The notes under the pieces were generated by a model. It saw only the letters and a program-made list of their open reading frames with translations. It ran no database searches and had not been told where the DNA came from. Below, piece after piece: positions 2,009 through 48,435 of a stretch of 64,000 nt of DNA. Every line of letters starts with the position of its first letter. Position 1 is the first letter of the stretch. The DNA comes from Xestospongia bergquistia (taxonomy: Eukaryota > Porifera > Demospongiae > Haplosclerida > Petrosiidae): the NCBI GenBank assembly GCA_963965975.1, contig OZ014413.1, forward strand, positions 4,908,001 to 4,972,000, written 5' to 3'. Made by a program: the position numbers and the translations under genes.

Positions 2009-2757
2009 AAGACATAGTAGATGGGACATTTACTTTAGGACATATTAGATGGGACAATTATACTAGGACACAGTAGGTTGCATAGTTACATTATACAGAA
2101 TAGAAAGGACAATTACATTAGGACAGAGTAAAAGAAACTGGTACATTAAGACACAGTTGATGGGACTGTTACATTAGGACAGACAAGTTACATCAGCAAT
2201 TACATTAGGACAAAGTGGAAGGGAATTTTATATTAAGAACACGCAAGATGAGATAATTTCATTAGGACACAGTAGATGGGACAGTTACCTTAGGACACAG
2301 TAGATAGGACAGTTAAATTAAAAGACAGTAACAGATGGTTAGATAAAGACACAATAGTTACTAAAATTATGTTAGGAGATAGTAAATGGGATAATTATAC
2401 TAGGACACAGTAGACAGGGGTGTTACATTAGGACAAGGTAAATTGTCAATTACGTTAAAACACATTGGAATGGAATGTTTACAATAGGACAGAGCAGATT
2501 AGACAACTACATTAGGACACAGTACACAGGACAATTATACTAGGATACAGTAGCCCTGATGATTACAATAGGATATAATAGACAGGACAGTTACATTAGA
2601 ACACAGTAGATTGGACAGCTATATTGGGTCTGAGCTGATAGGACAATTATATTAGTATGCATTAGACAGGACAATTATACTAGGACACTGTTTAGACAGG
2701 ATGTTTATGTTAGACACTGTAGATGAGACAGTTACATTCAGAAACAGTAGACAGATA
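2009..2757. repeat. 28-bp minisatellite block, copy 1 left
   Basis: Degenerate tandem repeat with consensus close to attaggacacagtagatggg plus acagttac, period about 28 bp with variant lengths. It continues the array cut by the LTR element. The same block is found at 21,033-21,781 and, shortened, at 42,876-43,345. Confidence 0.85.
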
Positions 2758-3596
2758 ATAGGCTATCAATAATATAGAAGTCTTATATGCTGTAATGCAC
2801 TACACAACAAGTGCAAGAGAAGAGGAATTGTCTGACCATTACAAGCTGATACTGATACAAAAGTAGACACAATAGGGGAAAATAGGCTTGTACAAAATAA
2901 GACATTTGACTAATTTTATTCAGACTTGCTACATTGTAATTAATATACTGGTTACTAAAGTCTATATATTACAGAGAAAAGGACTAGTGATATATTATGT
3001 TTAAAAATGACTGATGACAGGCTTAGTTCTGATAACAGATCCACTAAAACTAAGGGCTAAAGCTCACTAAATTTAAAAGTTAAGTTGGGCAAGCTAGATA
3101 TACTAACACACATGGAGTACTGCTACTCTGTCCGTATTTGTTACTACTGTCTTTCTCTTTTGTTGTAGCCAGGGGCATCATCTCAGATTTACTACAGAAA
3201 ACATTGTCAAATGGCCTGGCTGCATGGAATCCAGTTTCCTCTTGTCTTCCTAAAGAGCCCTGCATAAGTAAAGTCCCGACAGACTGGTTGCTAAAATGAA
3301 GTAATGGAATCCAGTTCTTTCATCTGGTCTTGCTAAACAGCCCTGCAGAAGTAAAGTCCTGACACTCTTGTTGCTAAAGTGAAGTAATGGCGTCTAAGTT
3401 TATTATTTTCTAGTACAAATTTGGCGCCACAAAAGCGACTAATCGAACTGAGCATGCTCAGTTGATCATGGATATTGCACCATGATAGTAACAACAATAT
3501 AACTGCCTATATCTTATCTAGTATACAATGAACGTTGTCTGTCTGAATATAGGTTTATTAATCACACGTATATGAAGCCCTGACATTATGTTGCAG
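2758..3596. other. Low-copy spacer with local duplication and palindrome
   Basis: No convincing gene. A segment of about 80 bp beginning tggaatccagtt is tandemly repeated (about 3,226-3,305 and 3,306-3,388). A perfect 18-bp palindrome, AACTGAGCATGCTCAGTT, lies at 3,446-3,463. Small open frames here are unconvincing. The whole stretch recurs in copies 2 and 3. Confidence 0.5.
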
Positions 3597-4735
3597 TATG
3601 TCAAAGTGTAGATTAGAAGAAGATATGCTCATGCCTTGTTTTCAGCTGCTAGTAAAAAAGCATCATTAGAGAAAGTTGAAAAGGAACTAAAAGAGTTTCA
3701 GGTAATAGATAGATATTAATATCACTAGCATTTGTAGTATTCTGTGGTATTTTGATCTATCATGTCTGGGATCGATTTTAAAGTCCTATTTACAAAAGAG
3801 AATTAAAAAGTTTTTTAAAGCACAATCCAATATTCCAGTTAATGATGATAATGAAATAGAACTAAACATGTCTTCTGTTGATAATATCAAATATTCTGTT
3901 ATGAAAGAGTTACGTGAACCTCTGCTTGATGAAAATCTTATTATAACTGCTAATGTATAATTTATAATGAAGTACATGTAGAGTGTATATGTACATGTAA
4001 CGGGTTATACAATTTTTTAAAAATTAATGGATTTCTTAATTTTATAGAAACTGACGCAAGATTCACCAGCTCTCTCTGCTTTTATTAATAACCCTACCAT
4101 CAGAACAGAAACAAAGTAAATAATTAAGATAAGTGCTATTTTAATACTTACTCGTCTTTAGCTGCTGTTAATGATGTTTTAAAAGAGAAGAAGTATTCTG
4201 ATCTCACTGTGAACCTCTTTGGTTAGTTGTCCTTAATCCACAGTGACATACTATGTGTTGTCATAATAGTTTTTAAAGGTGCATTAGCTGAAAATATGTA
4301 TTTAACCAAAGTGTCTGGAGTGATGAAAGGTTTTGATACAATTATGAGTGCTTATAGAGGAGAGGTCAACAGTGCTGTCGCTACTGCTGAGGTATAATAA
4401 TATTAATTAAAAGTGCATGTTGTCACATTTGAATGCAGCTTAACAAGAAATTATACTATTATGAAATCGCGAATGCCAGAGAACAAGGTTTAAAGAATAC
4501 TTAATAGAGCAGTGTGCAACACATAATTTTCTAATCAGCCATAGTCCCTTTCTAGTAAAGAACAGCACAACTTCTGTGATGGTGGCTTTTAAAATGCCAT
4601 TTAGTAGAGCAGAGCAGGAGTAACGCAAGAATTAATTATGCTGCAATCACAGTTAACATTGAGGGTGTCCGTTGTTTTCTGTACAGGAAAGAAATTAAAA
4701 GAGCTAAAACAAATTTTAATTTCTCTGATATAAAG
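3597..4735 (+). pseudogene. ATP5PO: ATP synthase OSCP subunit relic, copy 1
   Basis: OSCP links the F1 head and the peripheral stalk of mitochondrial ATP synthase. Exon-like blocks with GT..AG borders encode OSCP-type sequence. 3,597-3,701 reads IRRRYAHALFSAASKK.. then EKVEKELKEFQ. 4,048-4,115 reads KLTQDSPALSAFINNPTIR. 4,162-4,221 reads AVNDVLKEKKYSDLTVNLF. 4,279-4,391 reads GALAEN.. then MSAYRGEV... A possible further block at 4,707-4,735 gives KKLKELKQIL. This matches the family's RYA-ALY-AASK, NP-IKR, LAENGRL and MM-AHRGEV landmarks. It is broken: a TAG interrupts the first block upstream of IRRRYA, the frame does not carry across the second junction, and the family's C-terminal third is missing. 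Relative to copy 2 about 150 bp is deleted after 4,490. The identification is strong; loss of function is inferred. Confidence 0.8.
3712..3959 (+). other. Open frame inside the OSCP relic's first intron
   Basis: A frame of about 80 codons without an early ATG runs to a TAA at 3,957-3,959. It contains KSYLQKRIKKFFKAQ, then an acidic stretch, then VMKELREPLLDEN near the end. It has mixed, protein-like composition and is unchanged by eye in copies 2 (about 22,736-22,983) and 3. I do not recognise it. It may be an exon of something else or a chance frame preserved because the duplications are young. Confidence 0.25.
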
Positions 4736-4786
4736 TAGATTATATACATTATCTAATATAAAGTGCTGATGATGAGTGATTTGGTA

Positions 4787-4852
4787 TGGTAGTCCTCCTC
4801 CCAGTAGGTCAATGCTTTACTATTGTTTGGGTACTTGCTCTTCCTGGCATAG
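4787..4852 (-). pseudogene. POT/SLC15-like gene fragment, copy 1
   Basis: The reverse strand reads a stretch matching residues about 231-251 of the intact transporter at 52,835 (an ARK.KYP then ALTYWEEDY motif). Only about 66 bp remain. The sequence to its right (from 4,853) is the AT-rich 5' flank of the POT genes, so most of the N-terminal half was removed by a deletion that is not present in copy 3. Confidence 0.8.
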
Positions 4853-5982
4853 TAAGATATTATATACGACTGTATAATTATCATTTGTTATATATACTGG
4901 TTGCAATTGCGAATTTCTTTTTATTGAAAATAAGCATAAACTGTTGCTATTACTAATGTACTCCTATTTGTGTGGCTACATTACCTTCACTTTCGTAATA
5001 CATTAATAATTAATAATATCATGTTGATATTTTTCATAACTATGCAACCTGTATACACTGTAGTTAAAATTAAATCAATTTGCAATCAATCAACTTTTAC
5101 AGTTTTGGTACATAATTTATATGTATAGTATATAATAATATGTCATATATGACTGTTTTATAATAATGAACCATTTCTGTCATTTCTGTCCACACTTAGA
5201 CTAGATATGTACTGACACTGGTAGTCTACAATTGTAGGCTATACAGAGAAGATTCTCAATATTTCAAATATAATGTGAAAGTTTATGTCACAAAGAGTGT
5301 GACATAATTTTTATACAACTTACTAAACTGTGTTGTATTGATTGTCACAAAAGATAGGCTTATTTAACTAATCCTTTATAATTTTTAATGCACATGATAC
5401 ATAATATAGTAGTTAACATCACATACTTTTATAATTCAAGTGCAAATAGAATATAGACTATATTGTGTATATATAGTAAGTGGATAGTTCCTATCTTATG
5501 AGATATTAGAAGGATTCTTAAAGCTCTGACAATCAACTACATGTCTTATTATTAGTAGCTACCTCACTGACCTATAGATGTGCCAAGTAAAATTAATGAG
5601 ATGTTAAAAGTAATCACAGTATATCAAATTTCCTGTCATCATAGAAGCCTGCATGTGATCATCATATGACTTGTACACAGCTAATTATTAACAAATGTGA
5701 TTCAAATACAGCATTCAGCATTTACAAGTCGTATGAATCAATGCAGATCATAGGATTTATGATACATACAAGGAATACAATAGATTTTCAAACTGTGAAT
5801 TGATCTATTTTATTGGAGGTGATGTTACATAGAATATTCTGTTTCTTGAGAAGTACATTGTATATTTTTAGATGAAATTCAGACTCCTGCAATCTGACAT
5901 CTAGCATGGCAAAGAAGATGATATGTTAGGACTTTAAGGCTAAAACATTAAGGCTATAGATGTTTCTTTGTCAACTACTATG

Positions 5983-6032
<50 letters not shown>

Positions 6033-6600
6033 TATATATTAATTACTTACATTATGAATTGTATATGTTATTTTTTATAGAGTTGTGCCAATAAGTTGAG
6101 TTAATTTTTAAAAAGGAGGACAAGACAAGTTTAGTGTTCTGTCACAAGATTATTTTCGGGTTTGTGATTATACAAAGACACTGGTAGTAAAAGCAGATGA
6201 ATATCAATAGATTTGTCAGTATTATAAACATTCAAAATTAGAGTATATAAACTGAGTATTCAAAGAGATCTAAAGTACATCTGATTGTGCACTTAGTTGA
6301 CATCATGAGACAATATGGACCAATAAATTGATTCAAGACTGAAGGGTTAGATATTTTGGTAATCCCACATTTATTGGTTTTGTTTATTCTCAGATATTGA
6401 CAGATATAAAGCCTTAAATTCCATAAATAAGAAGACAGTGTATGTATGAAAATCAACAAGCTCCAACGTAGGATGTTAATACCAGCTTTGCTTTGCAATT
6501 GCTGGAGTATCCACTTTTTATAATAAGTTAAGGGGATCTGTGGGTCTTTGTCATCCAAGTTCTCAAAATGTATTAAAAACTTTTTCAATGTTTATTTACA
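4853..6600. repeat. AT-rich POT-gene 5' flank, shared block
   Basis: No gene is supported here. Parts recur next to POT pseudogenes. 4,853-5,130 resembles 46,680-47,000 in the same orientation, and 51,760-52,160 more distantly. About 5,395-6,600 resembles 47,320-48,330 in inverted orientation. The block therefore looks like upstream DNA carried along with a POT gene. A 116-codon minus frame at 6,238-6,588 lies in it, but the inverted relative does not keep it open. Confidence 0.6.
5986..6029. repeat. (TA)n microsatellite, copy 1
   Basis: An uninterrupted AT dinucleotide run of about 44 bp. The equivalent in copy 2 is about 84 bp. Confidence 0.95.
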
Positions 6601-7060
6601 AGGTTCTACATCTGTTAGATTTGTAACTACCTTCGTTGTTTAGGAAACAAAATAATGACCTGGTTCATAAATATAGTTTGTGTTGTAAGACAATAACTGT
6701 TCACAGAATTGAATGTCATTACTGTCATATTTATTTAATGCCTAGTGTGACACAAGATGTGGTTGATCAACTGAATGGAGGTTTAAAGAAAGCAAATATT
6801 TTTATATACAGTTATTAAAATGATTTAAGAAAGAAAGTCCTTTTTCAATCAAAACAATTATTATCAAAGGTTGATCTTTCTTTACTCATTTTACATTTCA
6901 ATAATTCATAGGTTGTGAATATTATTATATAAATGAATGAAAATGAAAGAGATAATATTTGCATCTCTTATTTTTTATTGTTTGTATCTTTCTGTGTGTC
7001 ATCTAACCATTTACATGTCTGTTAATCTATTCTTTTAATCTACACTATATATATCTATCT
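6601..7060. other. AT-rich low-copy DNA
   Basis: Nothing recognised. Repeated almost exactly at 25,818-26,277. A 60-codon plus frame is too short and unsupported. Confidence 0.4.
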
Positions 7061-8313
7061 AGTTATTAAAAGTTATAACCTGTCTCAGTAATACTCCTTT
7101 GTCCTCTATGAGTTGCAGTTCCATTACTTCTTACAGTTGTATTAGTAGCTCCTAATGTTACAGTTATATATACAATATTAGTATCTAGTTATTAAAAGTT
7201 ATAACCTGTCTCAGTAATACTCCTTTGTCCTGTACGAGTTCCAATTCCATTACTTCTTACAGTTGTATTAGTAGCTCCTAATGTTACAGTTATATATACA
7301 ATATTAGTATCTAGTTATTAAAAGTTATAACCTATCTCAGTAATACTCCTTTGTCCTCTATGAGTTGGAGTTCCATTACTTCTTACAGTAGTATCAGTAG
7401 TTCCTAATGTTACAGTTATATATACAATATTAGTATCTAGTTATTAAAAGTTATACCCTGTCTCAGTAATACTCCTTTGTCCTCTATGAGTTGGAGTTCC
7501 ATTACTTCTTACAGTAGTATCAGTAGCTCCTAATGTTACAGTTATATATACAATATTAGCATCTAGTTATTAAAAGTTATACCCTGTCTCAGTAATACTC
7601 CTTTGTCCTCTACGAGTTCCAGTTCCATTACTTCTTACAATAGTATCAGTAGCACCTAATGTTACAGTTATATATACAATATTAGTATCTAGTTATTAAA
7701 AGTTATAACCTATCTCAGTAATACTCCTTTGTCCTCTATGAGTTGGAGTTCCATTACTTCTTACAGTAGTATCAGTAACTCCTAATGTTACAGTTATATA
7801 TACAATATTAGCATCTAGTTATTAAAAGTTATAACCTGTCTCAGTATGACACCTTTGTCCTCTATGAGTTTCAGTTCCATCACTTCTTACAGGAGTATTA
7901 GTAGCACCTAATGTTACAGTTATATATACAATATTAGCATCTAGTTATTAAAAGTTATAACCTGTCTCAGTATTACACCTTTGTCCTCTATGAGTTGCAG
8001 TTCCATTACTTCTTACAGTAGTATCAGTAGCAGCGCCTAATGTTACAGTTATATATACAATATTATCATCTAGTTATTAAAAGTTATAACCTGTCTCAGT
8101 ATTACACCTTTGTCCTCTACGAGTTGCAGTTCCATTACTTCTTACTGTAGTATTAGTAGCTCCTAATGTTACAGTTATATATACAATATTAGTATCTAGT
8201 TATTAAAAGTTATAACCTATCTCAGTATTACACCTTTGTCCTCTACGAGTTCCAGTTCCATTACTTCTTACAATAGTATCAGTAGCACCTAATGTTACAG
8301 TTATATATACAAT
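7061..8313. repeat. 126-bp satellite, about 10 monomers (copy 1)
   Basis: Tandem monomers start agttattaaaagttataacc, with exact 126-bp spacing (7,061, 7,187, 7,313 and on). Each monomer also holds tactcctttgtcctct, ccattacttcttacag and tgttacagttatatataca. Monomers differ at a limited set of positions, including a CpG/TpG alternation (ctacgagtt or ctatgagtt). Confidence 0.95.
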
Positions 8314-9050
8314 ATTAAGTCCGACTAGTTTAGAGAATTTTACTATTAAATGAGTTTGCTCTCCAAATTTGCCACGGTTAGGGTATCAGATTTTTATTCT
8401 GAACAGTTCACTAGCACTGGTTTGTTTAGCTTTCAATATGTGGCTAACAAAACACACTACCACCAAACACCTATAACAATAATATTTTAAACAATACATA
8501 ATATAATTTGCTTTTGTCTTATAGCTATTTTGTACCAATGGCAGAGTATAATATGAGACAATTTAATTTGCTCTCTCTCTCTCAAGAATTCCTCAAACAG
8601 AGGAAACATTTACCCATCAAACCTCAGCCTGCTTTTATCCTTTATATTTACGTGTTGAAATCATGTGACTGGGTGTTAGCAAAATGGGATCATCACACAG
8701 GGGTAACACTTCACTATTGAGTAGTCAAAATTTTGACTAAAATTTGAGGTAAAGAATGCGTCGATCACATGGGAAAATGACTAAATAGTTTAGGTTTTGT
8801 ACAAGTGAGTCAGATAATACATATGGCACATATAGCTCAACCTGTTTTTGGAGCCACACACCAGTTTATAATTGTCATTGAAATGATCATATTCAGAATA
8901 ACCACCTATATATCCCTCATTGTGGGCACAGTCTTCTTTCCGTTCCAATGGACTTGCTGGTGTAGACTATCAATATATCCTTGGAATTGTAAGGATTCTT
9001 GAAGTTTTGAAATTTCTGTCTCTTTTTCCTAATCTGTTATAACTGTATAC
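8314..9050. other. Low-copy DNA after the 126-bp satellite
   Basis: Recurs at 33,684-34,396. No gene assigned. The minus strand at about 8,850-8,985 has a short stretch of mixed composition (PLERKEDCAHNEGYIGGYS..) that could be an exon relic, but I do not recognise it and it lacks clear borders. Confidence 0.3.
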
Positions 9051-11065
9051 ACTGGAGCACTACTATACTGCAGATTTTATCTTAAAATGATCCATTTTTA
9101 GGACAATTTAATAGGATTCTGCATATCCATTATGTTCCTTTGTCTTATTTCTGTAAGCAATTATTGTTTGTTTTAAAAGACTTCTAACAACAGAAACTAA
9201 AATACAGACTCAGTTTTGTCTTGGCAAATTTTATGTGGAGAATGTAACAAAAATAACACATTATCAAATAAATTGAATAAATCATAAGGTGGTCATGATG
9301 GGCAGTTTACCAGTTCTTGTAGTATGTACTTGATGGTACATCCTACTATCTTGACAGCACAAACAGTAACATAATGATTGCCACTGAACTGAAAATAGAA
9401 ATGCAAGCACTATACCATATAGTTTATAATAGACACCACATGTAATATGTCCTTTTTCTGAGAAGTCGTTTGTTAAATTACACACACTGCAGCAAAGTTC
9501 CAGAGTAATTAACAGTCTTTGGTAAAATGTCAACAGTCATATAACCTTCTGTACCATATACATCACTACAGGGCTATAGGGAAGTAAAATGGATGGTAAA
9601 ATTTCTTTAAATCCTAACAACGAAAGATATATATTAACACACGAACTTATAAATTATTGTACCTTTTATGTAGCAAAGCATGCTGATATACTGCACTACT
9701 GTAATAGCTAACTTCCACCAGCTTTTAGACATAATCTAATTTGGTAAGATTCTATAGAAAATGTGAGCACTTACATTTATATATATATAACAAATATACC
9801 CCATTCAAGTCGAATTTGATCTGATTCTATATATTTTTTGCTAAACATGTATGTTAGTGAGAAATGGCTTTGATTATTTAACAGCCTTTGAAATAGTGTT
9901 TAAAATACACAAAGTGCGGGTAATATGTAAAAGATACTGTTTGCATTCCAGTGTTAACAAGCATTTCGACATGCATTCTCCAACTATAACAGAAACTGTA
10001 CAAATTGTTATAAAAGTGGAAAAAAGGACAAAGAATAAAGCAAACCAATTAAATGTGAATCACTGGAGCACTACTATACTGCAGATTTTATCTTAAAATG
10101 ATCCATTTTTTAGGACAATTTAATAGGATTCTGCATATCCATTATGTTCCTTTGTCTTATTTCTGTAAGCAATTATCGTTTGTTTTAAAAGACTTCTAAC
10201 AACAGAAACTAAAATACAGACTCAGTTTTGTCTTGGGAAATTTTATGTAGAGAATGTAACACAAATAACACATTATCAAATAAATTGAATAAATCATAAG
10301 GTGGTCATGATGGGCAGTTTACCAGTTCTTGTAGTATGTACTTGATGGTACATCCTACTATCTTGACAGCACAAACAGTAACATAATGATTGCCACTGAA
10401 CTGAAAATAGAAATGCAAGCACTATACCATATAGTTTATAATAGACACCACATGTAATATGTCCTTTTTCTGAGAAGTCGTTTGTTAAATTACACACACT
10501 GCAGCAAAGTTCCAGAGTAATTAACAGTCTTTGGTAAAATGTCAACAGTCATATAACCTTCTGTACCATATACATCACTACAGGGCTATAGGGAAGTAAA
10601 ATGGATGGTAAAATTTCTTTAAATCCTAACAACGAAAGATATATATTAACACACGAACTTATAAATTATTGTACCTTTTATGTAGCAAAGCATGCTGATA
10701 TACTGCACTACTGTAATAGCTAACTTCCACCAGCTTTTAGACATAATCTAATTTGGTAAGATTCTATAGAAAATGTGAGCACTTACATTTATATATATAT
10801 AACAAATATACCCCATTCAAGTCGAATTTGATCTGATTCTATATATTTTTTGCTAAACATGTATGTTAGTGAGAAATGGCTTTGATTATTTAACAGCCTT
10901 TGAAATAGTGTTTAAAATACACAAAGTGCGGGTAATATGTAAAAGATACTGTTTGCATTCCAGTGTTAACAAGCATTTCGACATGCATTCTCCAACTATA
11001 ACAGAAACTGTACAAATTGTTATAAAAGTGGAAAAAAGGACAAAGAATAAAGCAAACCAATTAAA
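9051..11065. repeat. Tandem duplication of a 1.01-kb segment (copy 1 only)
   Basis: 9,051-10,053 and 10,062-11,065 are nearly identical (offset 1,011-1,012 bp) and joined by a few bases (tgtgaatc). Copy 2 has the segment once. Each carries the same 83-codon minus frame, which looks like a chance frame. No gene recognised. Confidence 0.95.
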
Positions 11066-11213
11066 AAGAGGCTTTAGTATAACTGTGAAAAAAACATTAA
11101 AGTTATGAGGCTGGCCACATTTGCTATATTATTGATACAACTTTTTGCCATAACAATTTCAAACTTTACAATCTACTAGCCAAACTACAGAGCTACTATA
11201 TTATATACGCTTC
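11066..11213. other. Short low-copy spacer
   Basis: Single-copy within the unit and repeated at about 35,393-35,540. No feature recognised. Confidence 0.4.
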
Positions 11214-11348
11214 AAAAAAGAATGAGCTGAGGATTGACAGTACTCTCAGTACATCATAGCTAGGATACCTATGATGCTCCAGACGACACCAACGTGGAGG
11301 TGGTACTGTATTGCCGTCCACCCACCCTTCCACCTCTCATTCTTTTTT
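11214..11348. mobile_element. 135-bp foldback (MITE-like) element, copy 1
   Basis: Ends in a perfect 13-bp inverted repeat: AAAAAAGAATGAG on the left and CTCATTCTTTTTT on the right. The interior is more GC-rich than its surroundings, with further short complementary stretches (ggaggtgg and ccacctc). It could be a non-autonomous DNA transposon or a structured transcript. No target duplication was established. Confidence 0.5.
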
Positions 11349-11753
11349 ATTGGCCTAATATGCTCAAAAGACATCTGTTAAGGGCTTAATATGCTCAAAA
11401 TATATCTTTTAATGGCCTACCATGCTCAAAATATATCTTTTAATGGCCTAATATGCTCAAAATACATCGATTAATAGCCTATATGCTCAAAAAACATCTT
11501 TTAAGGACCAAATATGCTCAAAACACATCTGATAATGGCCTAATATGCTCAAACTACAACTTTTAATGGCGTAATATGCTCGAATGCATCTTATGATGGC
11601 CTAATATGTTCGAAATACATCTTTCAATGGCCTAACATGATCATCTTTTAATGGCCATGCTCAAACTACATCTTTTAATGGCCTAACATTGATTGTCTTT
11701 TAATGGCCTAACATTGATCATGATTTAATGGCCTAACATAATCACCTTTTAAT
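11349..11753. repeat. 31-bp minisatellite, about 13 units (copy 1)
   Basis: Tandem units start ggcctaatatgctcaaaata and end catcttttaat, period about 31 bp with shortened variants to the right. It runs directly into the 28-bp array at 11,754. Confidence 0.9.
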
Positions 11754-14700: not shown

Positions 14701-15136
14701 TTCATTAGAACACAGTAGATGGTAGAGTTTTATTAGAACACATTAGATGGGACAGATACATTAGAACACAGTAGATGGAACAATTACTTTAGGACGCTTA
14801 CTTTAGGACACAGTAAATGGGACAGTTACGTTATGACACAGTAGATGGGACAGTTATGTTAGAACACAATAGACAGGATGATTACATTCGAACAGAGTAG
14901 ATGCGAGAGTTACATTAAAATGCATTAGATAGGAAAATTATTTTAGAACACACTAGATCGCACAGTTACATTAAGACACAATACAAGTAGATGGGACAGT
15001 TTCATTAGAACACAGTAGATTGGACAGTTACGCTAGAACACGGTAGATGGGACAGATTTAGAACATGGTAGATGGGACTGTTTTAGAACACAATAGATGG
15101 GACAGTTACATAAAAACACAGTAGATTGGACAGTTA
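11754..15136. repeat. 28-bp minisatellite, main block (copy 1)
   Basis: More than 100 degenerate units of the attaggacacagtagatggg / acagttac type. Left-half variants read gttgatgggacaattac; right-half variants read gtagatgggacagtttc. Blocks marked by gatgacacagtatatg recur at about 12,411, 12,781, 13,192 and 13,480, showing irregular higher-order duplication. Confidence 0.9.
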
Positions 15137-23907: not shown

Positions 23908-23957
23908 AGATTATATACATTATCTAATATAAAGTGCTGATGATGAGTGATTTGGTA

Positions 23958-34396: not shown

Positions 34397-35540
34397 TCAC
34401 TGGAGCACTACTATACTGCAGATTTTATCTTAAAATGATCCATTTTTTAGGACAATTTAATAGGATTCTGCATATCCATTATGTTCCTTTGTCTTATTTC
34501 TGTAAGCAATTATCGTTTGTTTTAAAAGACTTCTAACAACAGAAACTAAAATACAGACTCAGTTTTGTCTTGGGAAATTTTATGTAGAGAATGTAACACA
34601 AATAACACATTATCAAATAAATTGAATAAATCATAAGGTGGTCATGATGGGCAGTTTACCAGTTCTTGTAGTATGTACTTGATGGTACATCCTACTATCT
34701 TGACAGCACAAACAGTAACATAATGATTGCCACTGAACTGAAAATAGAAATGCAAGCACTATACCATATAGTTTATAATAGACACCACATGTAATATGTC
34801 CTTTTTCTGAGAAGTCGTTTGTTAAATTACACACACTGCAGCAAAGTTCCAGAGTAATTAACAGTCTTTGGTAAAATGTCAACAGTCATATAACCTTCTG
34901 TACCATATACATCACTACAGGGCTATAGGGAAGTAAAATGGATGGTAAAATTTCTTTAAATCCTAACAACGAAAGATATATATTAACACACGAACTTATA
35001 AATTATTGTACCTTTTATGTAGCAAAGCATGCTGATATACTGCACTACTGTAATAGCTAACTTCCACCAGCTTTTAGACATAATCTAATTTGGTAAGATT
35101 CTATAGAAAATGTGAGCACTTACATTTATATATATATAACAAATATACCCCATTCAAGTCGAATTTGATCTGATTCTATATATTTTTTGCTAAACATGTA
35201 TGTTAGTGAGAAATGGCTTTGATTATTTAACAGCCTTTGAAATAGTGTTTAAAATACACAAAGTGCGGGTAATATGTGAAAGATACTGTTTGCATTCCAG
35301 CATTTCGACATGCATTCTCTAACTATAACAGAAACTGTACAAATTGTTAAAAAAGTGGAAAAAAGGACAAAGAATAAAGCAAACCAATTAAAAAGAGGCT
35401 TTAGTATAACTGTGAAAAAAACATTAAAGTTATGAGGCTGGCCACATTTGCTATATTATTGATACAACTTTTTGCCATAACAATTTCAAACTTTACAATC
35501 TACTAGCCAAACTACAGAGCTACTATATTATATACGCTTC
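34397..35540. repeat. 1-kb segment, single in copy 2, with spacer
   Basis: Single counterpart of the doubled segment at 9,051-11,065, followed by the short spacer before the foldback element. It lacks about 10 bp (near 35,300) that both copy 1 versions contain. Confidence 0.85.
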
Positions 35541-35675
35541 AAAAAAGAATGAGCTGAGGATTGACAGTACTCTCAGTACATCATAGCTAGGATACCTATG
35601 ATGCTCCAGACGACACCAACGTGGAGGTGGTACTGTATCGCCGTCCACCCACCCTTCCACCTCTCATTCTTTTTT
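35541..35675. mobile_element. 135-bp foldback (MITE-like) element, copy 2
   Basis: Same 13-bp terminal inverted repeats and interior as 11,214-11,348, with one visible substitution (tgtatcgcc versus tgtattgcc). Confidence 0.5.
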
Positions 35676-36000
35676 ATTGGCCTAATATGCTCAAAAGACA
35701 TCTGTTAAGGGCTTAATATGCTCAAAATACATCTTTTAATGGCCTACTATGCTCAAAATATATCTTTTAATGGCCTAATATGCTCAAAATACATCTTTTA
35801 ATGGCCAAATATGCTCAAAACACATCTGATAATGGCTTAACATGCTCAAACTACAACTTTTAATGGCGTAATATGCTCGAATGCATCTTATGATGGCCTA
35901 ATATGTTCGAAATACATCTTTTAATGGCCTAACATTGATTGTCTTTTAATGGCCTAACATTGATCATGATTTAATGGCCTAACATAATCACCTTTTAATG
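35676..36000. repeat. 31-bp minisatellite, about 10 units (copy 2)
   Basis: Same array as 11,349-11,753 but two to three units shorter, again running straight into the 28-bp array. Confidence 0.9.
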
Positions 36001-39000
36001 GTTACATTAGGACACAGTAGATGGGTCAATTGCATTAGAAAGCAGTAGAAGGGACAATTACATTACAACACAGTTGATGGGACAATTATGTTAGAACACA
36101 GTTGATGGGACAATTACGTTAGAACACAGATGATGGGACAATTACGTTAGAACAGGGTTGATGGGACAATTACTTTAGGACACAGTACAAGGACATAGTA
36201 GACAGGACAGTCACTTTAGAACAGTAGATAGGGCAGTTACATAGGAACGCAATAGACAGGACAGTTATGTTAGAGGACACATTAGATGGGACAGACAATC
36301 TAGGACACAGTTGATGGGACAGTCACAATAGGACACAGTTGATAGGATGTTAGGACACAGTTGATGGGATAGTTACATAAGAACACAGTTGATGGGACAA
36401 TTACTTGAGGACAGAGTACATCAGTCAATTACAATAAGACACAGTAGACAGGACAGTTATTTTAGGACACAGTAGATGGGACAGTCACATTAGGACATAG
36501 TAGATGACACAGTATATGGGACAGACAAACAAGGACACAGTAGATGGGACAGTCACAATAGAACACAATTAATAGGACGTTAGGACACAGTTAATGGGAT
36601 AGTTACATAAGAACACAGTTGATGGGACAATTACATGAGGACACAATAGATCAGTCAGTTACAATAGGACACAGTAGACAGGACAGTTACTTTAGGACAC
36701 AGTAGATTGGGCAGTTACATTAGAACACAGTTGATGGGACAATTACGTTAGAACACAGTTGATGGGACAATTACTTTAGGACACAGTACAAGGACATAGT
36801 AGACATGACAGTCACTTTAGAACAGTAGATAGGGCAGTTACATTACAACACAATAAACAGGACAGTTACGAAAGAGGACACATTAGATGGGACAGTCACA
36901 TTAGGACATAGTAGATGACACAGTATATGAGACAGTCAAACTAAGACACAGTTGATGGGACAGTCACAATAGGACACAGTTGATGGGACATTAGGACACA
37001 GTTGATGGGATACTTACATAAGAACACAGTTGATGGGACAATTACTTGAGGACACAGTACATCAGTCAATTACAATAAGGCACAGTAGACAGGACAGTTA
37101 TTTTAGGACATAGTAGATGGGACAGTCACATTAGGACATAGTAGATGACACAGTATATGGGACAGACAAACTAGGACACAGTTGATGGGACAGTCACAAT
37201 AGGACACAGTTGATAGGACATTAGGACACAGTTGATGGGATAGTTACATAAGAACACAGTTGATGGGACAATTACTTGAGGACACAGTACATCAGTCAGT
37301 TGCAATAGGAAACAGTAGACAGGACAGTTACTTTAGGACACAGTAGATGGGGCAATTACATTAGAACACAGTAGATGGGACTGTTACATTAGGACACAGT
37401 ACATGGGACACTTAAATTAGAAGACACTTGATGGGACAATTAAACAGTTACTTTAGAACACAGTAGATTGGAAAGTTATATTAGAACACAGTAGATCGGA
37501 CAGTTACATTAAGACACTGTAGACAGGAGAGTTACATTAAAAGATACTAGATGGGACATTTTCATCAGGACACAGTAGATGGGACATTTTCACTAGAACA
37601 AAGTAGATGGGACAGTTACATTAAAAATTAGTTCATTGCACAGTTACATTAGAACACAGTAGATGGGACAATTACTTTGGAACAGTTTCATTAGGACACA
37701 GTAGATGGGTCAGTTTTATTAGAACACAGTAGATGATACAGTTTCATTAGAACATAGTAGATGGGACAGTTTCATTAGAACACAGTAGATGAGACAGTTT
37801 CATTGGAACACAGTAGATGGGACAATTACTTTTGAACAATTTCATTAGGACACATTAGATGGGACAGTTTCATTATAACACAGTAGATGGGACAGTTACG
37901 ATAAAAATCAGATTATTGGACAGTTACATTAGAAGACAGTAGAGTGGACAATTACTTTAGGACACAGTGGATCAAACAAGTTACATTAGGACACAGTAGA
38001 CAAGAGAGTTACATTAAAAGGCAGTAGATATGACAGTTACTATAGGACACAGTAGATTGGACAGTTTCGTTAGAACGCAGTAGATGATACAGTTTCATTA
38101 GAACACAGTAGATGGGACAGTTTCATTAGAACACAGTAGATGGGACAGTTTCATTGTAACACAGTAGATGGGACAATTACTTTGGAACAGTTTCATTAGG
38201 ACACAGTAGATGGGTCAGTTTTATTAGAACACAGTAGATGATACAGTTTCATTAGAACACAGTAGATGGGACAAATTCATTAGAACACAGTAGATGGGAC
38301 AGTTTCATTGGAACACAGTAGAGGGGACAATTATTTTGGAACAGTTCCATTAGGACACTGTAGATGGGACAGTTTCATTATAACACAGTAGATGGGACAG
38401 TTATGGTAAAAATCAGTTTATTGGACAGTTACATTAGAAGACAGTAGAGTGGACAATTACTTTAGGACACAGTAGATCAGACAAGTTACATTAGGACACA
38501 GTAGACAAGGGAGTTACATTAAAGGACAGTAAATATGACAGTTACTATAGGACACAGTAGATGAGACAGTTTCATTAGAACACAGTAGATGGGACAGTTT
38601 TATTAGAACACACTAGATGGGACAGTTAAATTAGACATTAGAAATCAGTTCATTGGACAGTTACATTAGAACACTAAAAATGAGCTCATTGGACAGTTAC
38701 ATGAGAACACAATAGATGGATTTTAGGAAACAGTAGATCAGACAAGTTACATTAGGACACAGTAGACAAGAGAGTTACATTAAAACACAGTAGATGAAAC
38801 AGTTACTATAGGACAAGGTAGATGAGACAGTTTCATTAGAACACAGTAGATGGGACAGTTTCATTAGAACACAGTAGATGGTACAGTTTTATTAGAACAC
38901 AGTAGATGGGACAGTTACATTAAAAATCAGTTCATTGGACAGATTCATTAGAACGCAGTAGATGGAACAATTACTTTAGGACACAGTACATGGGACAGTT

Positions 39001-39362
39001 ACGTTATGACACAGTAGATGGGACAGTTATGTTAGAACACAATAGACAGGATGATTACATTCGTACAGAGTAGATGCGAGAGTTACATTAGAACGCATTA
39101 GATAGGAAAATCAATTTAGAACACACTAGATCGCACAGTAACATTAAGACACAGTAGACAAGACAGTTACATTAGGACACATTAGATGGGACAGTTATGT
39201 TAGAACACAGTAGATGGGACAGTTTTATTAGAACACAGTAGATGGGACAGTTACGCTAGAACACGGTAGATGGGACAGATTTAGAACATGGTAAATGAGA
39301 CTGTTTTAGAACACAGTAGATGGGACAGTTACATAAAAACACAGTAGATTGGACAGTTATGC
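36001..39362. repeat. 28-bp minisatellite, main block (copy 2)
   Basis: Equivalent to 11,754-17,035 of copy 1 but about 1.9 kb shorter, because the internal block duplication seen in copy 1 is absent. Confidence 0.9.
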
Positions 39363-39710
39363 TATTAAAGGGAATGCTAAGACATATCATATTATACATG
39401 TACGTTAAGGTTCATTGCACATTCCAAGCATGCAAAGAAAATTGTTAGTATCGGTGTATGTACCAACTCAAGTAAAATTAATATGCTCTAGAAAAAATAA
39501 GACCAAGTCTTGTCAGTTAAGACATGCATATACAAATAAAATTAATATACTCTGGAAAAGCTAAGATAAAGGCTTCCCAGTTAAGACATGCATATACAAG
39601 TAAATTATTAATATACTCTAGAAAAGCTAAGATAAAAGCTTGTCAGTTAAGACATGCATATATAAGTAAAATTAAAATGCTCTAGAAAAGCTAAGATAAA
39701 GGCTTGTCAC
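39363..39710. repeat. Spacer and 64-bp minisatellite, about 3-4 units (copy 2)
   Basis: Starts with the same ggaatgctaagacatatc spacer as 17,036 and holds only a few 64-bp units before cacatataatttgtgatt. Confidence 0.85.
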
Positions 39711-40604
39711 ATATAATTTGTGATTACAGTTACTCTTGACTAAATATTGTTACTCCTTAGATCACCATCTTTGTTGTAGAAACAAAATACCAACATCACT
39801 GTAGAGGTAGTAAAAGAATTATTTCACAGCAGTTATCAGAGAATTATATCATAAGTAAATTATTAATAACATCCAATAAGTGGTAGATATAACTTACAAG
39901 ATGTTGGTGAGACTGAGAGCCTCCAGGAGATAGATAGTCCGTCATATAGAGCAGCAACCATAGAAAGTCCGTGATATAGAACAGCAACCATAGAAAAGAA
40001 ACAAATACATTATTTGTCCTAACTCACCATTAAAAGGAACACCATCTTCAATATATGTTCCTAAATGATTATAAATTTATTATATACTATCTGTTATGAG
40101 GTATAACTTACCAGTAGCCAGGGTTGCCTTATAGATATATAAATTTTCTTTCTATATATATGTATATATGTAAAAAATAACAGTGATTATTTTGTTAAAA
40201 ATTTATGTATAGCTCAGAATTATATTGTAGTGGCTGTATATATTAAATTATGTAGCTAAGAGACTACCAGTAATATAATTATAAAAAACAATTATTGCAT
40301 GTAGAATATATCAAACTTACAAGGTAACAGTTGAGAGAACATCACCAGATCATCTTGGAAGATAAAAATCTAACTACATAATGAAATATATAGTGTTGGA
40401 TAACATTGGTTAGAATGTTATATACACAACTCACAACCAGTTTAGTTTTACTAGATCTATAACATTAAATGAAAGCACAGTAACAAACAATGATCATCTA
40501 CTTAACAAGTAAACAGTTAATAACATCATGCTTAGAACTCTGAGGGACATTATTACAATTCTAGCTGACAATAAGTAACCAGTAAATTTAGAACAATATA
40601 ACAA
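39711..40604. other. Low-copy DNA, copy 2
   Basis: Near-identical to 17,897-18,789. No gene recognised. Confidence 0.4.
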
Positions 40605-43345
40605 GTTTGAATAGACAGGATGGTTACATAAGGACACAGTAATGACGACAGCTACATTAGAAAACAACATACAGTAGACGATAAAGTTACATTAGGTCAC
40701 AGTAGATGGGACAATTACAGTAGGACACATTAGACAGGACTGATACATTAGGACAAAGTGGATGAGACAATTATTACAACACAGTAAACAAGAAAGACAA
40801 ATAGCATTATAACATAGCAAACGGAATAATTATATAGGGACACAGTAGATAGGAATATTACACAGTAGACAGGACAAATACAGTAGGACAGAGTAGATGG
40901 AAAATTACATTAGGTCACAGTAGATGAGACAAATACATTAGGAGACAGTAGACGAGCAGTTACATTAGGACACAGCAGAGAGGACAATTATATTAAGACA
41001 TGAGAGAGTTACATTATGACACAATAGAAGAGACAATTACATTTAAACACAGCATACGAGACAAGTACATTAGAACACAGTAGAAGGGACATTTACATTT
41101 GAATATAGTAGGACACATTAGAAGGGACATTTACAATTGAATATAGTAGGACACTGTAGAAGAAACATTTACATTTGAATAGAGTAGACAAGACACATTA
41201 AGACACAGTACATTGACAATTATAAAACATTGTAGAAGGGACAGTTACATTAGTACACGATAGAAGAAACGATTACATTTAGACACAGCAGACGAGACAA
41301 GTATATTAGAACACAGTAGAAGGGACATTTACAATTGAATAGCAGACGAGACAAGTATATTAGAACACAGTAGAAGGGACATTTACAATTGAATATAGTA
41401 GGACACTGTAGAAGAGACATTTATATTTGAATTATAGTAGACAAGACACATTAAGACACAGTACATTGACAATTATAGCACACTGTAGAAGGGACAGTTA
41501 CATTTGGACACAGTATATTGACAATTATAGAACACAGTAGAAGTGACAATTACATTAGGACACAGTATATTGACAATTATAGAACACAGTAGAATGGACA
41601 ATTACAATAGAGCACATTAGACAAGACAAATACATTAGGATACAGTAGATAGGAAAATTACAGTAGGACATAGTCGATGGGACAATTGCATTAGGAGATA
41701 GTAGACAAGTAGTTAGAATAGGACACAGCAGACAGCACGATTACATTAAGAGCAGACAGCACAATTACATTAAAAGCAGACAGCACAGTTACATTAGGAC
41801 ACAAGACAGTCACAATAGAACATAGTAGACAGGACAGTTATACTAAGGACACAGTACATTGGACAGAATATACTGGACAATTACATTATCACAAAGTAGT
41901 TGAGACAATTATGCTAGGACACAGTAGAAGGTAAACTTACACATCAGGATACAGCAGATGGGACAATTATGTTAGGACACAGTAGATGGGACAGTTATCT
42001 TGGCACACAGTAGAGAGGACAATTACACCACAAAGGATGGTTAGATAAAGACACAGTAAATGGGACAATTACGGAGACAGTAGACAGGACAACTATATAA
42101 CAACACAGTAGACAGGATGTTACATTAGAACACAGTAAATAGGACAGTTACGTTAGGACACAGTAGATAGGACAATTACATCAGAACACAGTAGACATGA
42201 TGTTACATTAGGACACACAGTTACTTTAGGACACAGTAGATAGGACAATTACATCACAATACAGTAGACTGGATATTACATTGGAACACAGTAAATGAAA
42301 GAGTTACCACAATAGACGGGGCAATCTTACTAAGGACACAACAACACAGTAGACAGGATGTTACATTAGAACACAGTAAATGTGATGGTACAGATACATT
42401 AGGACACAACAGTTACTTATATTATGACAAGGTATACACGATAATTACGTTAGGACACAGTGGTTAGGACAATTATGTTAAGACATTGTAGATGGACAAT
42501 TACACTAGGACACAGTTAGTTGCATAGTTATATCAGACAGAATTGACAGGGCTATTAAATTAGGAGACAGTAGATGGGACAATTACATTACAACACAGTA
42601 GATGGGCACTTATGTTAGGACACAGTAAAAGAAGCAGTTACATTAGGACACAGTCAATGCGACATTTAGTGGAATAAAATGTTATAATAGGACACCTGTC
42701 TACATTAGGACGCAATCAATTGGACAGTTAGTGGAATAGAATGTTATAATAGGACACCTGTATACATTAGGACACAGTAGGCAGGACAGATACAAACACA
42801 GTAGATAGGATAATTATATAAGACACAGTAGATTAGAATATTATGTTACAACACAGTACACAAGTCAGTTACATTAAGACATAGTAGATGGGACATTTAC
42901 TTTAGGACATATTAGATGGGACAATTATACTAGGACACAGTAGGTTGCATAGTTACATTATACAGAATAGAAAGGACAATTACATTAGGACAGAGTAAAA
43001 GAAACTGGTACATTAAGACACAGTTGATGGGACTGTTACATTAGGACAGACAAGTTACATCAGCAATTACATTAGGACAAAGTGGAAGGGAATTTTATAT
43101 TAACAACACGCAAGATGAGACAATTTCATTAGGACACAGTAGATGGGACAGTTACCTTAGGACACAGTAGATAGGACAGTTAAATTAAAAGACAGTAACA
43201 GATGGTTAGATAAAGACACAATAGTTACTAAAATTATGTTAGGAGATAGTAAATGGGATAATTATACTAGGACACTGTTTAGACAGGATATTTATGTTAG
43301 ACACTGTAGATGAGACATTTACATTCAGAAACAGTAGACAGATAA
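40605..43345. repeat. 28-bp minisatellite across the copy 2/copy 3 junction
   Basis: Equivalent to 18,790-21,781. In the copy 3 part about 290 bp is missing between two attatactaggacac repeats, consistent with recombination between direct repeats. Confidence 0.9.
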
Positions 43346-44183
43346 TAGGCTATCAATAATATAGAAGTCTTATATGCTGTAATGCACTACACAACAAGTG
43401 CAAGAGAAGAGGAATTGTCTGACCATTACAAGCTGATACTGATACAAAAGTAGACACAATAGGGGAAAATAGGCTTGTACAAAATAAGACATTTGACTAA
43501 TTTTATTCAGACTTGCTACATTGTAATTAATATACTGGTTACTAAAGTCTATATATTACAGAGAAAAGGACTAGTGATATATTATGTTTAAAAATGACTG
43601 ATGACAGGCTTAGTTCAGATAACAGATCCACTAAAACTAAAGGCTAAAGCTCACTAAATTTAAAAGTTAAGTTGGGCAAGCTAGATATACTAACACACAT
43701 GGAGTACTGCTACTCTGACCGTATTTGTTACTACTGTCTTTCTCTTTTGTTGTAGCCAGGGGCATCATCTCAGATTTACTACAGAAAACATTGTCAAATG
43801 GCCTGGCTGCATGGAATCCAGTTTCCTCTTGTCTTCCTAAAGAGCCCTGCATAAGTAAAGTCCCGACAGACTGGTTGCTAAAATGAAGTAATGGAATCCA
43901 GTTCTTTCATCTGGTCTTGCTAAACAGCCCTGCAGAAGTAAAGTCCTGACACTCTGGTTGCTAAAATGAAGTAATGGCGTCTAAGTTTATTATTTTCTAG
44001 TACAAATTTGGCGCCACAAAAGCGGCTAATCGAACTGAGCATGCTCAGTTGATCATGGATATTGCACCATTATAGTAACAACAATATAACTGCCTATATC
44101 TTATCTAGTATACAATGAACATTGTCTGTCTGAATATAGGTTTATTAATCACACGTATATGAAGCCCTGACATTATGTTGCAG
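43346..44183. other. Low-copy spacer, copy 3
   Basis: Equivalent to 2,758-3,596, including the local duplication and the 18-bp palindrome. No gene recognised. Confidence 0.4.
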
Positions 44184-45737
44184 TATATCAAAGTGTAGAT
44201 TAGAAGAAGATATGCTCATGCCTTGTTTTCAGCTGCTAGTAAAAAAGCATCATTAGAGAAAGTTGAAAAGGAACTAAAAGAGTTTCAGGTAATAGATAGA
44301 TATTAATATCACTAGCATTTGTAGTATTCTGTGGTATTTTGATCTATCATGTCTGGGATCGATTTTAAAGTCCTATTTACAAAAGAGAATTAAAAAGTTT
44401 TTTAAAGCACAATCCAATATTCCAGTTAATGATGATAATGAAATAGAACTAAACATGTCTTCTGTTGATAATATCAAATATTCTGTTATGAAAGAGTTAC
44501 GTGAACCTCTGCTTGATGAAAATCTTATTATAACTGCTAATGTATAATTTATAATGAAGTACATGTAGAGTGTATATGTACATGTAACGGGTTATACAAT
44601 TTTTTAAAAATTAATGGATTTCTTAATTTTATAGAAACTGATACAAGATTCACCAGCTCTCTCTGGTTTTATTAATAACCCTACCATCAGAACAGAAACA
44701 AAGTAAATAATTAAGATAAGTGCTATTTTAATACTTACTCGTCTTTAGCTGCTGTTAATGATGTTTTAAAAGAGAAGAAGTATTCTGATCTCACTGTGAA
44801 CCTCTTTGGTTAGTTGTCCTTAATCCACAGTGACATATTATGTGTTGTCATAATAATTTTACAGGTGCATTAGCTGAAAATATTTGTGACCATAAATACG
44901 AAAATGGTACCTAACACGCAAGTGAATTTTGAACAAATGCTTGTGTAGAAACGGTTGCTACGCATCCATCTTGAGCAGGAAGTCAATGTTATTTGGTATT
45001 CATGAAGGTCAATCATTGATCTCGATACATAATGAATTTTAATAGCTTCCTGTTAAAGATGGCTGCATAGCAACAATTTATACGCAAGTGTTCACTCGAA
45101 ATTTGTTTGCGCGTTAGGTACCATTTTCGTATTTATGGTCACATTTATTTAACTAAAGTGTCTGGAGTGATGAAAGGTTTTGATACAATTATGAGTGCTT
45201 ATGGAGGAGAGGTCAACTGTGCTGTCACTACTGCTGAGGTATAATAATATTAATTAAAGGTGCATGTTGTCACATTTGAATGCAGCTTAACAAGAAATTA
45301 TACTATTATGAAATCGCGAATGCCAGAGAACAAGGTTTAGTTGGAGTCCATATAAATGGAGGCTAAGATTTAACTGACATATTAGACAAGATGAGAAAAA
45401 AAGAGAGTGAGTCAGTGAGAGGAAGTGCAGGAGAGAGGAGGAAAGAGCTTTAGTATGAAAGATACTGTCTTATAAAGTCTCAGTATATTGAATTAAAGAA
45501 TACTTAATAGAGCAGTTTGCAACACATATTTTCAAATCAGCCACAGTCCCTTTCTAGTAAACAACAGCACAACCTCTGTAATAGTGGCTTTCAAAATGCC
45601 ATTTAGTAGAGCAGAGCAGAAGTAACACAAGAATTAATTATGCTGCAATCACAGTTAACATTAAGTTTGTCCATTGTTTCCTGTACAGGAAAGACATTAA
45701 AAGAGCTAAAACAAATTTTAATTTCCCCGATATAAGG
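44184..45737 (+). pseudogene. ATP5PO: ATP synthase OSCP subunit relic, copy 3 (MITE-interrupted)
   Basis: Same blocks as copies 1 and 2, including the shared TAG. The LAEN-containing block is split by a foldback MITE at 44,885-45,143, which neither other copy has. The acceptor before that block reads ttttacag here instead of tttaaag, perhaps the ancestral form. The block starting LNKKLYYYEIANAREQGL is extended as in copy 2. The right end (from about 45,480) is noticeably more diverged from the other copies than the left. Confidence 0.8.
44885..45143. mobile_element. Foldback MITE of 259 bp with long terminal inverted repeats
   Basis: Begins tgtgaccataaatacgaaaa and ends with the exact reverse complement of those 20 bases. 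The 37-base terminal arms differ at one site, and complementarity continues with interruptions almost to the middle (cgcaagtgaa and ttcactcg; gccatcttgagcaggaag and cttcctgttaaagatggc). It has no coding capacity. The empty site is visible in copies 1 and 2 (gctgaaaatattcatttaac in copy 2), so boundaries are well defined. The target duplication is only 2-3 T-rich bases and ambiguous. Confidence 0.85.
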
Positions 45738-45789
45738 TACATTATGTACATTTATCTAATATAAAGTGCTGATGATGAGTAATTTGGTA

Positions 45790-46523
45790 TGGTAGTCCTC
45801 CTCCCAGTAGGTCAAGACCTTACTACTCTTTGGGTACTTGTTCTTCCTGGCATAGTTGAGTACTTTAGCAATCAACTTCATAAAATTCATGAGAGGAGTA
45901 ATTTTCTAGCAATGTTTAAAAGGAATGAGTTATTATTACAACAGAGACTGTTACTTCTATCATTACAAAGGATAATAGAAGAAAACGGTGGAAAGAACAC
46001 TCTCTAAGTTCAGATATAGTAAAATATATCTGGCCATTAATACTATGCCAGTATATGATAGCACTTAGTTCGTCTGCTGAAGCTCCTACGAGTTGATCAA
46101 TATTGAACTGAACAATATTATTATGAACGTCAGCCTATCTAATTACAATACAAAGATACATAAGTGCATATATTACAAAAAATTGGATTATTAGGGCAAT
46201 ATGCTGCTATAATAAAACACACACCAGAACGTGTCCAAGCAAAAAAGCAGAAGATGCCAATGACAATGATCTTATAACATCCTGTCCACCTAGTTAGCTA
46301 TCAATCCAAGTAATGAGAACAAAGAAAACCCATTAAATATCCATTATTAAAATAATATTACTGGCACTATTTGATGACTTTGCTGTACATAGTAGCTCCA
46401 AAATATCTTATATATAAATATAATGTAGTTGTACATTAGAGCATCCCAGAAAATTACCAAAATAGTTGATTGTGAAGACAAATGACAGAAGTGACTAAAC
46501 AATCTTGACTAATGACTTGTCAT
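45790..46523 (-). pseudogene. POT/SLC15-like pseudogene 1, N-terminal half
   Basis: The reverse strand starts at ATGACAAGTCA (46,523), the same start as the intact gene at 52,835. It aligns through the first membrane segments, the LDQ..GAS.DELSAIIYW region and the ARK.KYP / ALTYWEEDY linker, then stops; the C-terminal half is absent. Frame breaks and small deletions are scattered along it, so it is not coding. It lies at the right end of megasatellite copy 3, and its last 70 bp are what copies 1 and 2 retain. It forms a head-to-head pair with pseudogene 2 at 48,436. Confidence 0.85.
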
Positions 46524-46679
46524 TTCTCTGATGTCATACTTGAAAAAATAGAACCTAAAAAAATACATAAGGCTATTCATCAACTCTTATAATTTCCCAT
46601 TGTAACAATAATCAGATATGAACTTAACAGACTACACTTAAAATATATGAACTACTTCACACCTATATTGGTGATAAAT

Positions 46680-48435
46680 CAATTGATTAAAATTTTATAT
46701 ACAACTGTATAATTATCATTTGTTATATGTACAGGTTGCAATTGCAAATTTCTTTTTGTTGAAAATAAGTATAAACTGTTGCTATTACTAATGTACTGCT
46801 GTTTGTGTGGCTACATTACCTTTACTTTCGTAATACATTAATAGTTAGTAATATCATGTTGATATTTTTCATAACTATGCAACCTGTATACACTGTATTT
46901 AAAATTAAATCAATTTGCAAACAAACACTTTTACAGTTTTGGTACATAATTTATATTTATAGTATATAGAGTCTAAATCAATTTGCAAACAAACAACTTT
47001 TACAGTTTTGGTACATAATTTATATTTATAGTATATAGAGTCTATAGAAGCATTTAAAAACAATGACACTGGAAGTAAGAATGAAAAATGTATAACTGAT
47101 ATAGCTATGTAATAAGATTTCACATAACATATTGCCTACAATTCTCATCTGAAAATGTGGAGGAACATCAACAGATTTGTCAGCAGTATATACAGCTATG
47201 ATTGTATATATGTCCTTGTTGTAATGTATTTGCTTTGAAGAGATAGAATTAACAAACATCTAAATCCCAATGAATAGTATAATTGTGTAAGGCCTTCTCC
47301 ACATCTAGCAGATATATACAAGATTGTAAATGAACATTGAAAGAGTTTGTCATATGTGGGTTGAGAAGTTAGATGATGAGGATCCACACATTCCCCTAAA
47401 CATATAAAATGTAGAAACTCCTGCAAAGCAAAGTTGGTGGCAATGTCCAGACTGGGAGCTTGTCAGTATTCATAATATATTCTGAGTTCTTATTAGGTAA
47501 TTGAAGACTTTATCTCTGTGAATGTCTGTGGATAAACACAAGAAATAGATGTGGGATCACTAAATAACTAACCCCTAATTCAATGTTGAATCATTTTGTT
47601 GGTCCAAATTGTCTCATGATATCAACTGTATGCAAAATCAGATGCACTTTAGATCTCTTTGAATTCTCAGTCATATACTCTAATGTTGAATGTAGATAAT
47701 ACTGACAAATCTATTAGTATTCATCTGTTTTTACTATCAGTGTTTCTGTTTTTAATAGTTTTAATAAAACTACAATTGTATAGTCACAGTCACATTAATA
47801 CAATTTTGTGACAGAACACTAAACTTGTCCACCTTTGTGCAGGAGTCTGAATTTTATCTAAAATATATAATGTATTTGACATTAAACAGCATTGTCTATG
47901 TAACATTACAAATAAAGGACATCTATTCACAGTGTGAAAATCTATCGTATTCCTTGTATGTGTCATAACCCTCTGATCTGCATTCGCGTCAACATTTGAA
48001 TTGACTTTTAAATGTTGATTGTTGTATGTTAATGACATATATTAATAATTAGCTGTGTATGAGTCATATGATTATCACATGCAGGCTCCTATCATGACAG
48101 AAAATTTGATATACTGTGATTACTTTTAACATCTCACTAATTTTAACTTAGCATATCTATGTCAGTGAGGAAGCTACTAATGACCAGTCATGTAGTTTAT
48201 TGTCAGAGCTTTGTGAGTTTTTGTAATGTATAATTAGTTAGGTAATATATACAACACATAGTCTAGTTTCTATTTTTGGACTTCAATTATAAAAGGTGTG
48301 ATGTTTATTACTATTACTGTATTATGTGTACTAAAATGACCATGGATTAATTTAATCAACCTATTTTTTGTGATATATTAACAACGCTATTTTATATTTC
48401 AAGGTTTCTGTATTTTCAAGTATACTATTTGAGAA
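46680..48435. repeat. Head-to-head intergenic region with inverted unit sequence
   Basis: 46,680-47,035 matches 4,853-5,130 in direct orientation. 47,320-48,330 matches about 6,600-5,395 in inverted orientation. Both are upstream flanks of POT pseudogenes 1 and 2, facing each other. Small open frames here differ from their homologues and look like chance. Confidence 0.7.

Follow-up and report, generated by a model that had tools for sequence, protein, structure and literature searches.

A probable macrosatellite-like tandem segmental duplication, apparently non-coding, beside a POT (SLC15A4-like) cluster

The locus is probably a non-coding, macrosatellite-like tandem segmental duplication that lies beside a cluster of POT (SLC15A4-like) genes and has been spread by recombination. 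The whole analysis is based on one locus in one sequence, and the window, by which we mean the complete stretch of DNA analysed, is 64 kb long, contains no N and is AT-rich, with a G+C content of 27.5-40.5% in 2-kb steps. Self-BLAST and alignments bore out the proposal of an earlier note that a long unit occurs here in two full copies and one partial copy; the units lie head to tail in one orientation, the third being truncated, and their homologous starts at 2009, 21033 and 42876 give periods of 19,024 and 21,843 bp.

2009..21032, plus strand: tandem unit 1, 19,024 bp (self-BLAST, alignments)
21033..42875, plus strand: tandem unit 2, 21,843 bp (self-BLAST, alignments)
42876..47037 (right end approximate), plus strand: partial unit 3 (copy 3), a mosaic that switches near 45,320-45,355

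The order within a unit is 28-bp array A, an OSCP relic, a POT relic, the 126-bp array and about 2-3 kb of other DNA, followed by the 31/25-bp array, 28-bp arrays B and C and the 64-bp array, and then by about 1 kb of other DNA and 28-bp array D, which passes unbroken into array A of the next unit. The nesting of 28-, 31-, 64- and 126-bp satellites together with gene relics inside the unit, also put forward in that note, was confirmed by TRF, Pfam and BLAST, and TRF reported short 83-, 62-, 30- and 69-bp duplicates as well. With array limits that we set from the TRF output, arrays account for 10,387 of the 19,024 bp of unit 1 (55%) and 14,288 of the 21,843 bp of unit 2 (65%).

2009..2751, plus strand: 28-bp array A, unit 1, 743 bp, 0/743 differences from 21033-21775
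7056..8317, minus strand: 126-bp array, unit 1, 10 copies
26273..33682, minus strand: 126-bp array, unit 2, 59 copies, weak higher-order period of 9 monomers
9050..11065, plus strand: 1-kb tandem duplication, unit 1 only (self-BLAST)
11345..11755, plus strand: 31/25-bp array, unit 1 (unit 2: 35672-36001; TRF)
11756..17033, plus strand: 28-bp arrays B and C, unit 1, separated by a spacer (15137-15356)
36002-39359, plus strand: 28-bp arrays B/C, unit 2, no split
17143..17895, plus strand: 64-bp array, unit 1, 11.7 copies (unit 2: 39469-39709, 3.7 copies; TRF)
18873..21032, plus strand: 28-bp array D, unit 1, continuous with the next unit (40671-42875 in unit 2)

Tandem segmental duplications are adjacent copies in one orientation, longer than 1 kb and more than 90% identical, and the present units have these properties: they are head to tail and show 78 differences over 10,106 aligned bases, a count over six segments that leaves out the rearranged arrays, two of the segments taking in 28-bp arrays A and D. 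Matches between copies on the kilobase scale reach 97-99% identity, far above chance. The kilobase units of a macrosatellite or megasatellite are likewise present head to tail, and of the many copies that go with this class the window holds about 2.2, the left end being open behind a retrotransposon. A ribosomal DNA array would have rRNA genes in each unit, and the window gave 0 Rfam matches at the gathering score. In Candida-type megasatellites the repeats lie in frame inside a gene, and here the doubled 126-bp consensus has stops in all six frames; a coding role of this repeat, the length of which divides by three, was rejected on the same evidence. No stop-to-stop frame of at least 100 aa was found in the 28-, 31- and 64-bp arrays. 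The locus belongs to a known kind, that of large satellite-bearing tandem units, and is ordinary rather than exceptional. The internal duplication confined to unit 1 has halves at 9050-10053 and 10061-11065 that are 99.5% identical.

The gene relics of the units derive from two sources.

3612..4492, plus strand: exon relics of OSCP (ATP synthase subunit O) with introns, unit 1 (Pfam, frames)
About 22636-23516 and 44199-45339, plus strand: OSCP relic copies, units 2 and 3 (frames in three copies)
About 4780..6623, minus strand: relic of POT-cluster DNA, unit 1 (BLAST; unit-2 copy at about 23951-25840)

In each of the three copies the frames resemble ATP synthase subunit O, and the joined translation of the four unit-1 exons matched Pfam OSCP (PF00213) with E 2.6e-21, covering positions 3-110 of the 172-position profile. 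This partial match, the last exon that is split by an insert in copy 3, and about 145 bp just downstream of the relic that are missing from unit 1 and present in units 2 and 3, are signs of decay in the OSCP copies; a stop directly ahead of the first exon frame could be intronic. Next to the first OSCP exon lies a frame of 83 codons that is open in 3/3 copies (3709-3957, 22733-22981 and 44296-44544), and its unit-1 copy has a weak DUF1368 match below the cut-off. The POT relic of units 1 and 2 has 78% identity to 51756-52159 and 76-79% identity, inverted, to 48373-47838 and 47749-47300, and the POT protein can be aligned by tblastn in units 1 and 2 over 23-24 residues. No stop-to-stop frame between 2009 and 47037 reaches 120 aa. 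The coding capacity of the tandem units is degraded, and they apparently consist of non-coding DNA.

The POT (SLC15A4-like) cluster itself occupies 45780-59049, with an open frame of 514 aa at 52832-54373 (PTR2, 1e-15); four more copies or fragments, lying in both orientations, are read by tblastn in several frames. The POT protein had no confirmed relative in viral_contigs, a viral collection that is uninformative on novelty. Next to the cluster, open frames at 60139-60914 match UNC-93 (4.6e-5, just above the Pfam cut-off); their MFS_1 match is weaker (9.9e-5) and falls below that cut-off. Two pairs of 131-bp repeats, one at 54912-55042 and 62286-62416 (96%) and the other, inverted, at 61074-61204 and 61844-61714 (89%), are perhaps small transposable elements.

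Our account of the tandem units rests on four observations: the copies follow one another head to tail, both junctions carry a 28-bp array, the edge copy is a mosaic, and divergence is patchy. Unequal exchange between units is the simplest explanation. Both visible unit junctions are spanned by an old 28-bp array, and misaligned exchange between units, by unequal crossing-over or gene conversion, would multiply the units and keep them alike. The 28-bp arrays may have been the first substrate of this exchange, since one is found at both visible junctions, and the units would carry no selected function. Through its 28-bp array, junction 1/2 is homologous to junction 2/3, array D measuring 2176 bp in unit 1 vs 2205 bp in unit 2 with 20 differences in 2176 bp. 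The similar length of the junction 28-bp arrays in units 1 and 2 could be read as a sign that the arrays are kept for a function, as a source of small RNA or as a chromatin boundary by the POT genes, but their degenerate monomers explain the conserved length without selection. Such a role is very improbable and has no direct support; the gene remnants, the tolerated insertions and the absence from the window of any RNA family at the gathering score and of any tRNA (ARAGORN) speak indirectly against it.

For the exchange between units, the arrays are informative in that they have changed to very different degrees. The 126-bp array, with a TRF monomer match of 92-94%, has 10 vs 59 copies in units 1 and 2; the 64-bp array (87-88%) has 11.7 vs 3.7 copies and the 31-bp array (76-82%) 11.5 vs 8.5. 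In the 28-bp arrays B/C the match is 65-75% in long rows and up to 87% in short rows, and they are rearranged in blocks of 95-99% identity, while arrays A and D, at 60-62% in long rows and 70-78% in short rows, have changed by 29 bp between units 1 and 2. Array turnover follows monomer uniformity across the array classes, which is a pattern rather than a test, since there are only five classes and array length differs too. The suggestion that the locus changes at two tempos was upheld insofar as the single-copy parts are near-identical and the 126-bp and 64-bp arrays have changed; it fails for the junction 28-bp arrays A and D, which are as conserved between units 1 and 2 as single-copy DNA. 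Divergence between these units by segment was 16/2484, 12/1481, 2/1016, 16/711, 4/1277 and 28/3137, the first segment including array A and the last array D, and is uneven, ranging from 0.2% to 2.3% (chi-square p about 2e-5, for segments set by the analyst).

The 126-bp monomers differ by 6-7% both within and between units, which is more than the units themselves differ, so that the 126-bp array predates the duplication of the unit and later grew or shrank. An identical partner is found for 21 of the 59 monomers in unit 2, which points to some recent growth of that array. Monomer position is only partly kept between units: monomer 1 of unit 1 is closest to monomer 1 of unit 2 and monomers 3-5 match 4-6, no unit-2 counterpart within 1.65% exists for monomers 7-9 of unit 1, whose final monomer is identical not to the final one of unit 2 but to monomers 10 and 21 there. 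The higher-order repeat is weak, with a mean distance of 0.051 at lag 9 vs about 0.07, and the close runs at this lag in unit 2 extend over no more than 4 and 6 monomers.

An origin shared by the 28-bp and the 126-bp satellites was also considered, on the basis of a 15-bp core match on opposite strands, and was rejected as not significant (equalled by 25/1000 shuffles, the comparison being one of six). A scan with the 28-bp consensus gave one minus-strand match in each of many 126-bp monomers (10 in unit 1, 50 in unit 2, two stray elsewhere), and these count as one event, the monomers being copies of one another. The 28-bp repeat had 0 matches in genome_contigs and viral_contigs (bacteria, archaea, viruses), and the 126-bp repeat 0 matches in viral_contigs (a viral collection), searches that are uninformative on novelty.

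The truncated copy 3 is a mosaic and contains two segments of its own.

44886..45142, no strand: 257-bp insert, copy 3 only, with inverted ends (40/45 first bases match), flanked by ATTT on each side
45857..46687, minus strand: POT-relic segment of about 830 bp, kept in copy 3, absent from units 1 and 2

We take the insert to be MITE-like. The segment of about 830 bp is continuous with the POT relic. Array A of this copy has 463 bp only (42876-43338), about 280 bp less than in units 1 and 2, and differs at 4/454 positions when aligned in two parts. Left of about 45.34 kb the distance of copy 3 to copies 1 and 2 equals their mutual distance, while right of this point it has diverged from both by 6-8%; over 45143-45856 it is 93.4% identical to unit 2. 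When sites with a gap are excluded, the 28 variant sites over 2752-4492 are private to unit 1 (11), unit 2 (5) and copy 3 (12), and over 4493-4853 variants private to copy 3 account for 27 of 28 sites and a variant private to unit 1 for the remaining one. The change from this star-like pattern (12/28 private to copy 3) to an old one (27/28) has a Fisher p of about 2e-5, which is descriptive, the point having been picked post hoc. The switch is located near 23,496-23,530 in unit 2 and at about 45,320-45,355 in copy 3, and is blurred by the stretch 4296-4492, where variant sites over all three copies (10 in 197 bp) are denser than in the stretch before it. A young left and an old right side of copy 3 are what would be expected of a scar from exchange within the array at its last copy.

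Copy 3 also bears on the concern that units 1 and 2 are alleles strung together by the assembly, which would leave one real unit and copy 3. The divergence of about 1% and the differing array lengths between units 1 and 2 are expected of two alleles, and the excerpt of PMC5103432 considered here describes the sea urchin Sp185/333 reference as a hybrid composed of two clusters that are probably allelic. Over the OSCP relic, however, three copies rather than two are about equally distant from each other, and unit 2 and copy 3 would be head to tail even if units 1 and 2 were allelic. Together with the gapless window and the resolution of a 7.4-kb array of 59 monomers, which would imply long reads, this makes such an artefact quite unlikely, and we retain the duplication of real units as the preferred reading.

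The earlier note had placed unique DNA at the left edge, which is not so; what is found there is the 3' LTR of a retrotransposon, probably of the gypsy type, inside the 28-bp array.

1..2008, plus strand: 3' part of an LTR retrotransposon, probably gypsy-type, interrupting the 28-bp array (Pfam, LTR start, empty-site comparison)

The frame 1-1674, which is open also at the window edge, matches Pfam RVP (7.5e-9) and rve (2.1e-13), and no reverse transcriptase match was seen in it with Pfam. The 3' LTR at 1711-2008, the one LTR visible within the window, begins with TGTAAT at 1711 and ends in CCACA, and array homology is back at 2009. A purine-rich tract before 1711, a zinc knuckle, the LTR ends and the Ty3/gypsy type were recognised by eye and are presumed from their familiar features. 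Over 1-1674 the protease runs into the integrase without a stop, and the element looks internally deleted with its frame still open. Such an element, together with OSCP exons that bear introns and SLC15A4-like transporters, would point to a eukaryotic source, probably an animal.

At the matching site the array is uninterrupted in units 2 and 3, which are identical over 126 compared bases (20960-21085, 42803-42928), so that the true left end should be outside the window. Since the retrotransposon sits inside the 28-bp array, at least array D should continue leftwards, and it is possible, if somewhat doubtful, that the locus is a true macrosatellite with more units left of the element and a variable copy number, although the window holds no copies beyond about 2.2. 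This is compatible with a tandem segmental duplication spread by recombination. A further step would be to see the locus as the right-hand edge of a large macrosatellite that is still changing: its period would be about 20 kb, the gypsy-type element would interrupt it, and it would contain at least four satellite families of differing uniformity in which recombination falls as monomers diverge. We regard this as unlikely; if true, one unit would show recombination declining with monomer divergence.

Large units of this kind have been described elsewhere. According to the excerpted text of PMC2588610, the human 4p11 megasatellite has a unit of roughly 6 kb with 1.6-kb blocks of 147-bp Acro satellite (8 copies listed), and Gor1 is an array of 12-kb units at 8p21.2, about 6 of them assembled, sized at 600 kb to 1.7 Mb; human megasatellites presumably arose by unequal crossing-over. 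As described there, they resemble the present locus in having head-to-tail units on the kilobase scale that enclose satellite blocks, genes or transposon pieces, but have more copies and units of 6-12 kb, compared with about 2.2 copies of 19-22 kb and several satellite families per unit here. In the rDNA of the Daphnia pulex complex, as excerpted from PMC3036644, internal short arrays also vary in number and mostly keep their position; functional genes are present there, whereas no ribosomal RNA match was found here, and terminal repeats are rarely involved, whereas here the 126-bp monomer that closes the array of unit 1 has its matches inside the array of unit 2. The invertebrate Sp185/333 cluster of the sea urchin shares tandem duplications, edges at short-repeat arrays and a partial copy with our locus, but in the portion of PMC5103432 considered its units measure 4.2-4.6 kb and mostly hold intact immune genes, in contrast to 19-22 kb, gene remnants and 28-bp arrays here. 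The present locus differs in unit size and in the number of satellite families, and is without evident live genes.

The locus warns against reading the edge of a retrotransposon as the end of an array, and displays what would be a recombination scar at an array edge. As its arrays have had equal time since the copying of the unit, they offer a natural experiment on turnover vs monomer identity, in which, at one locus, a monomer identity of 92-94% goes with 10 vs 59 copies and one of about 60-62% with arrays that are nearly unchanged.
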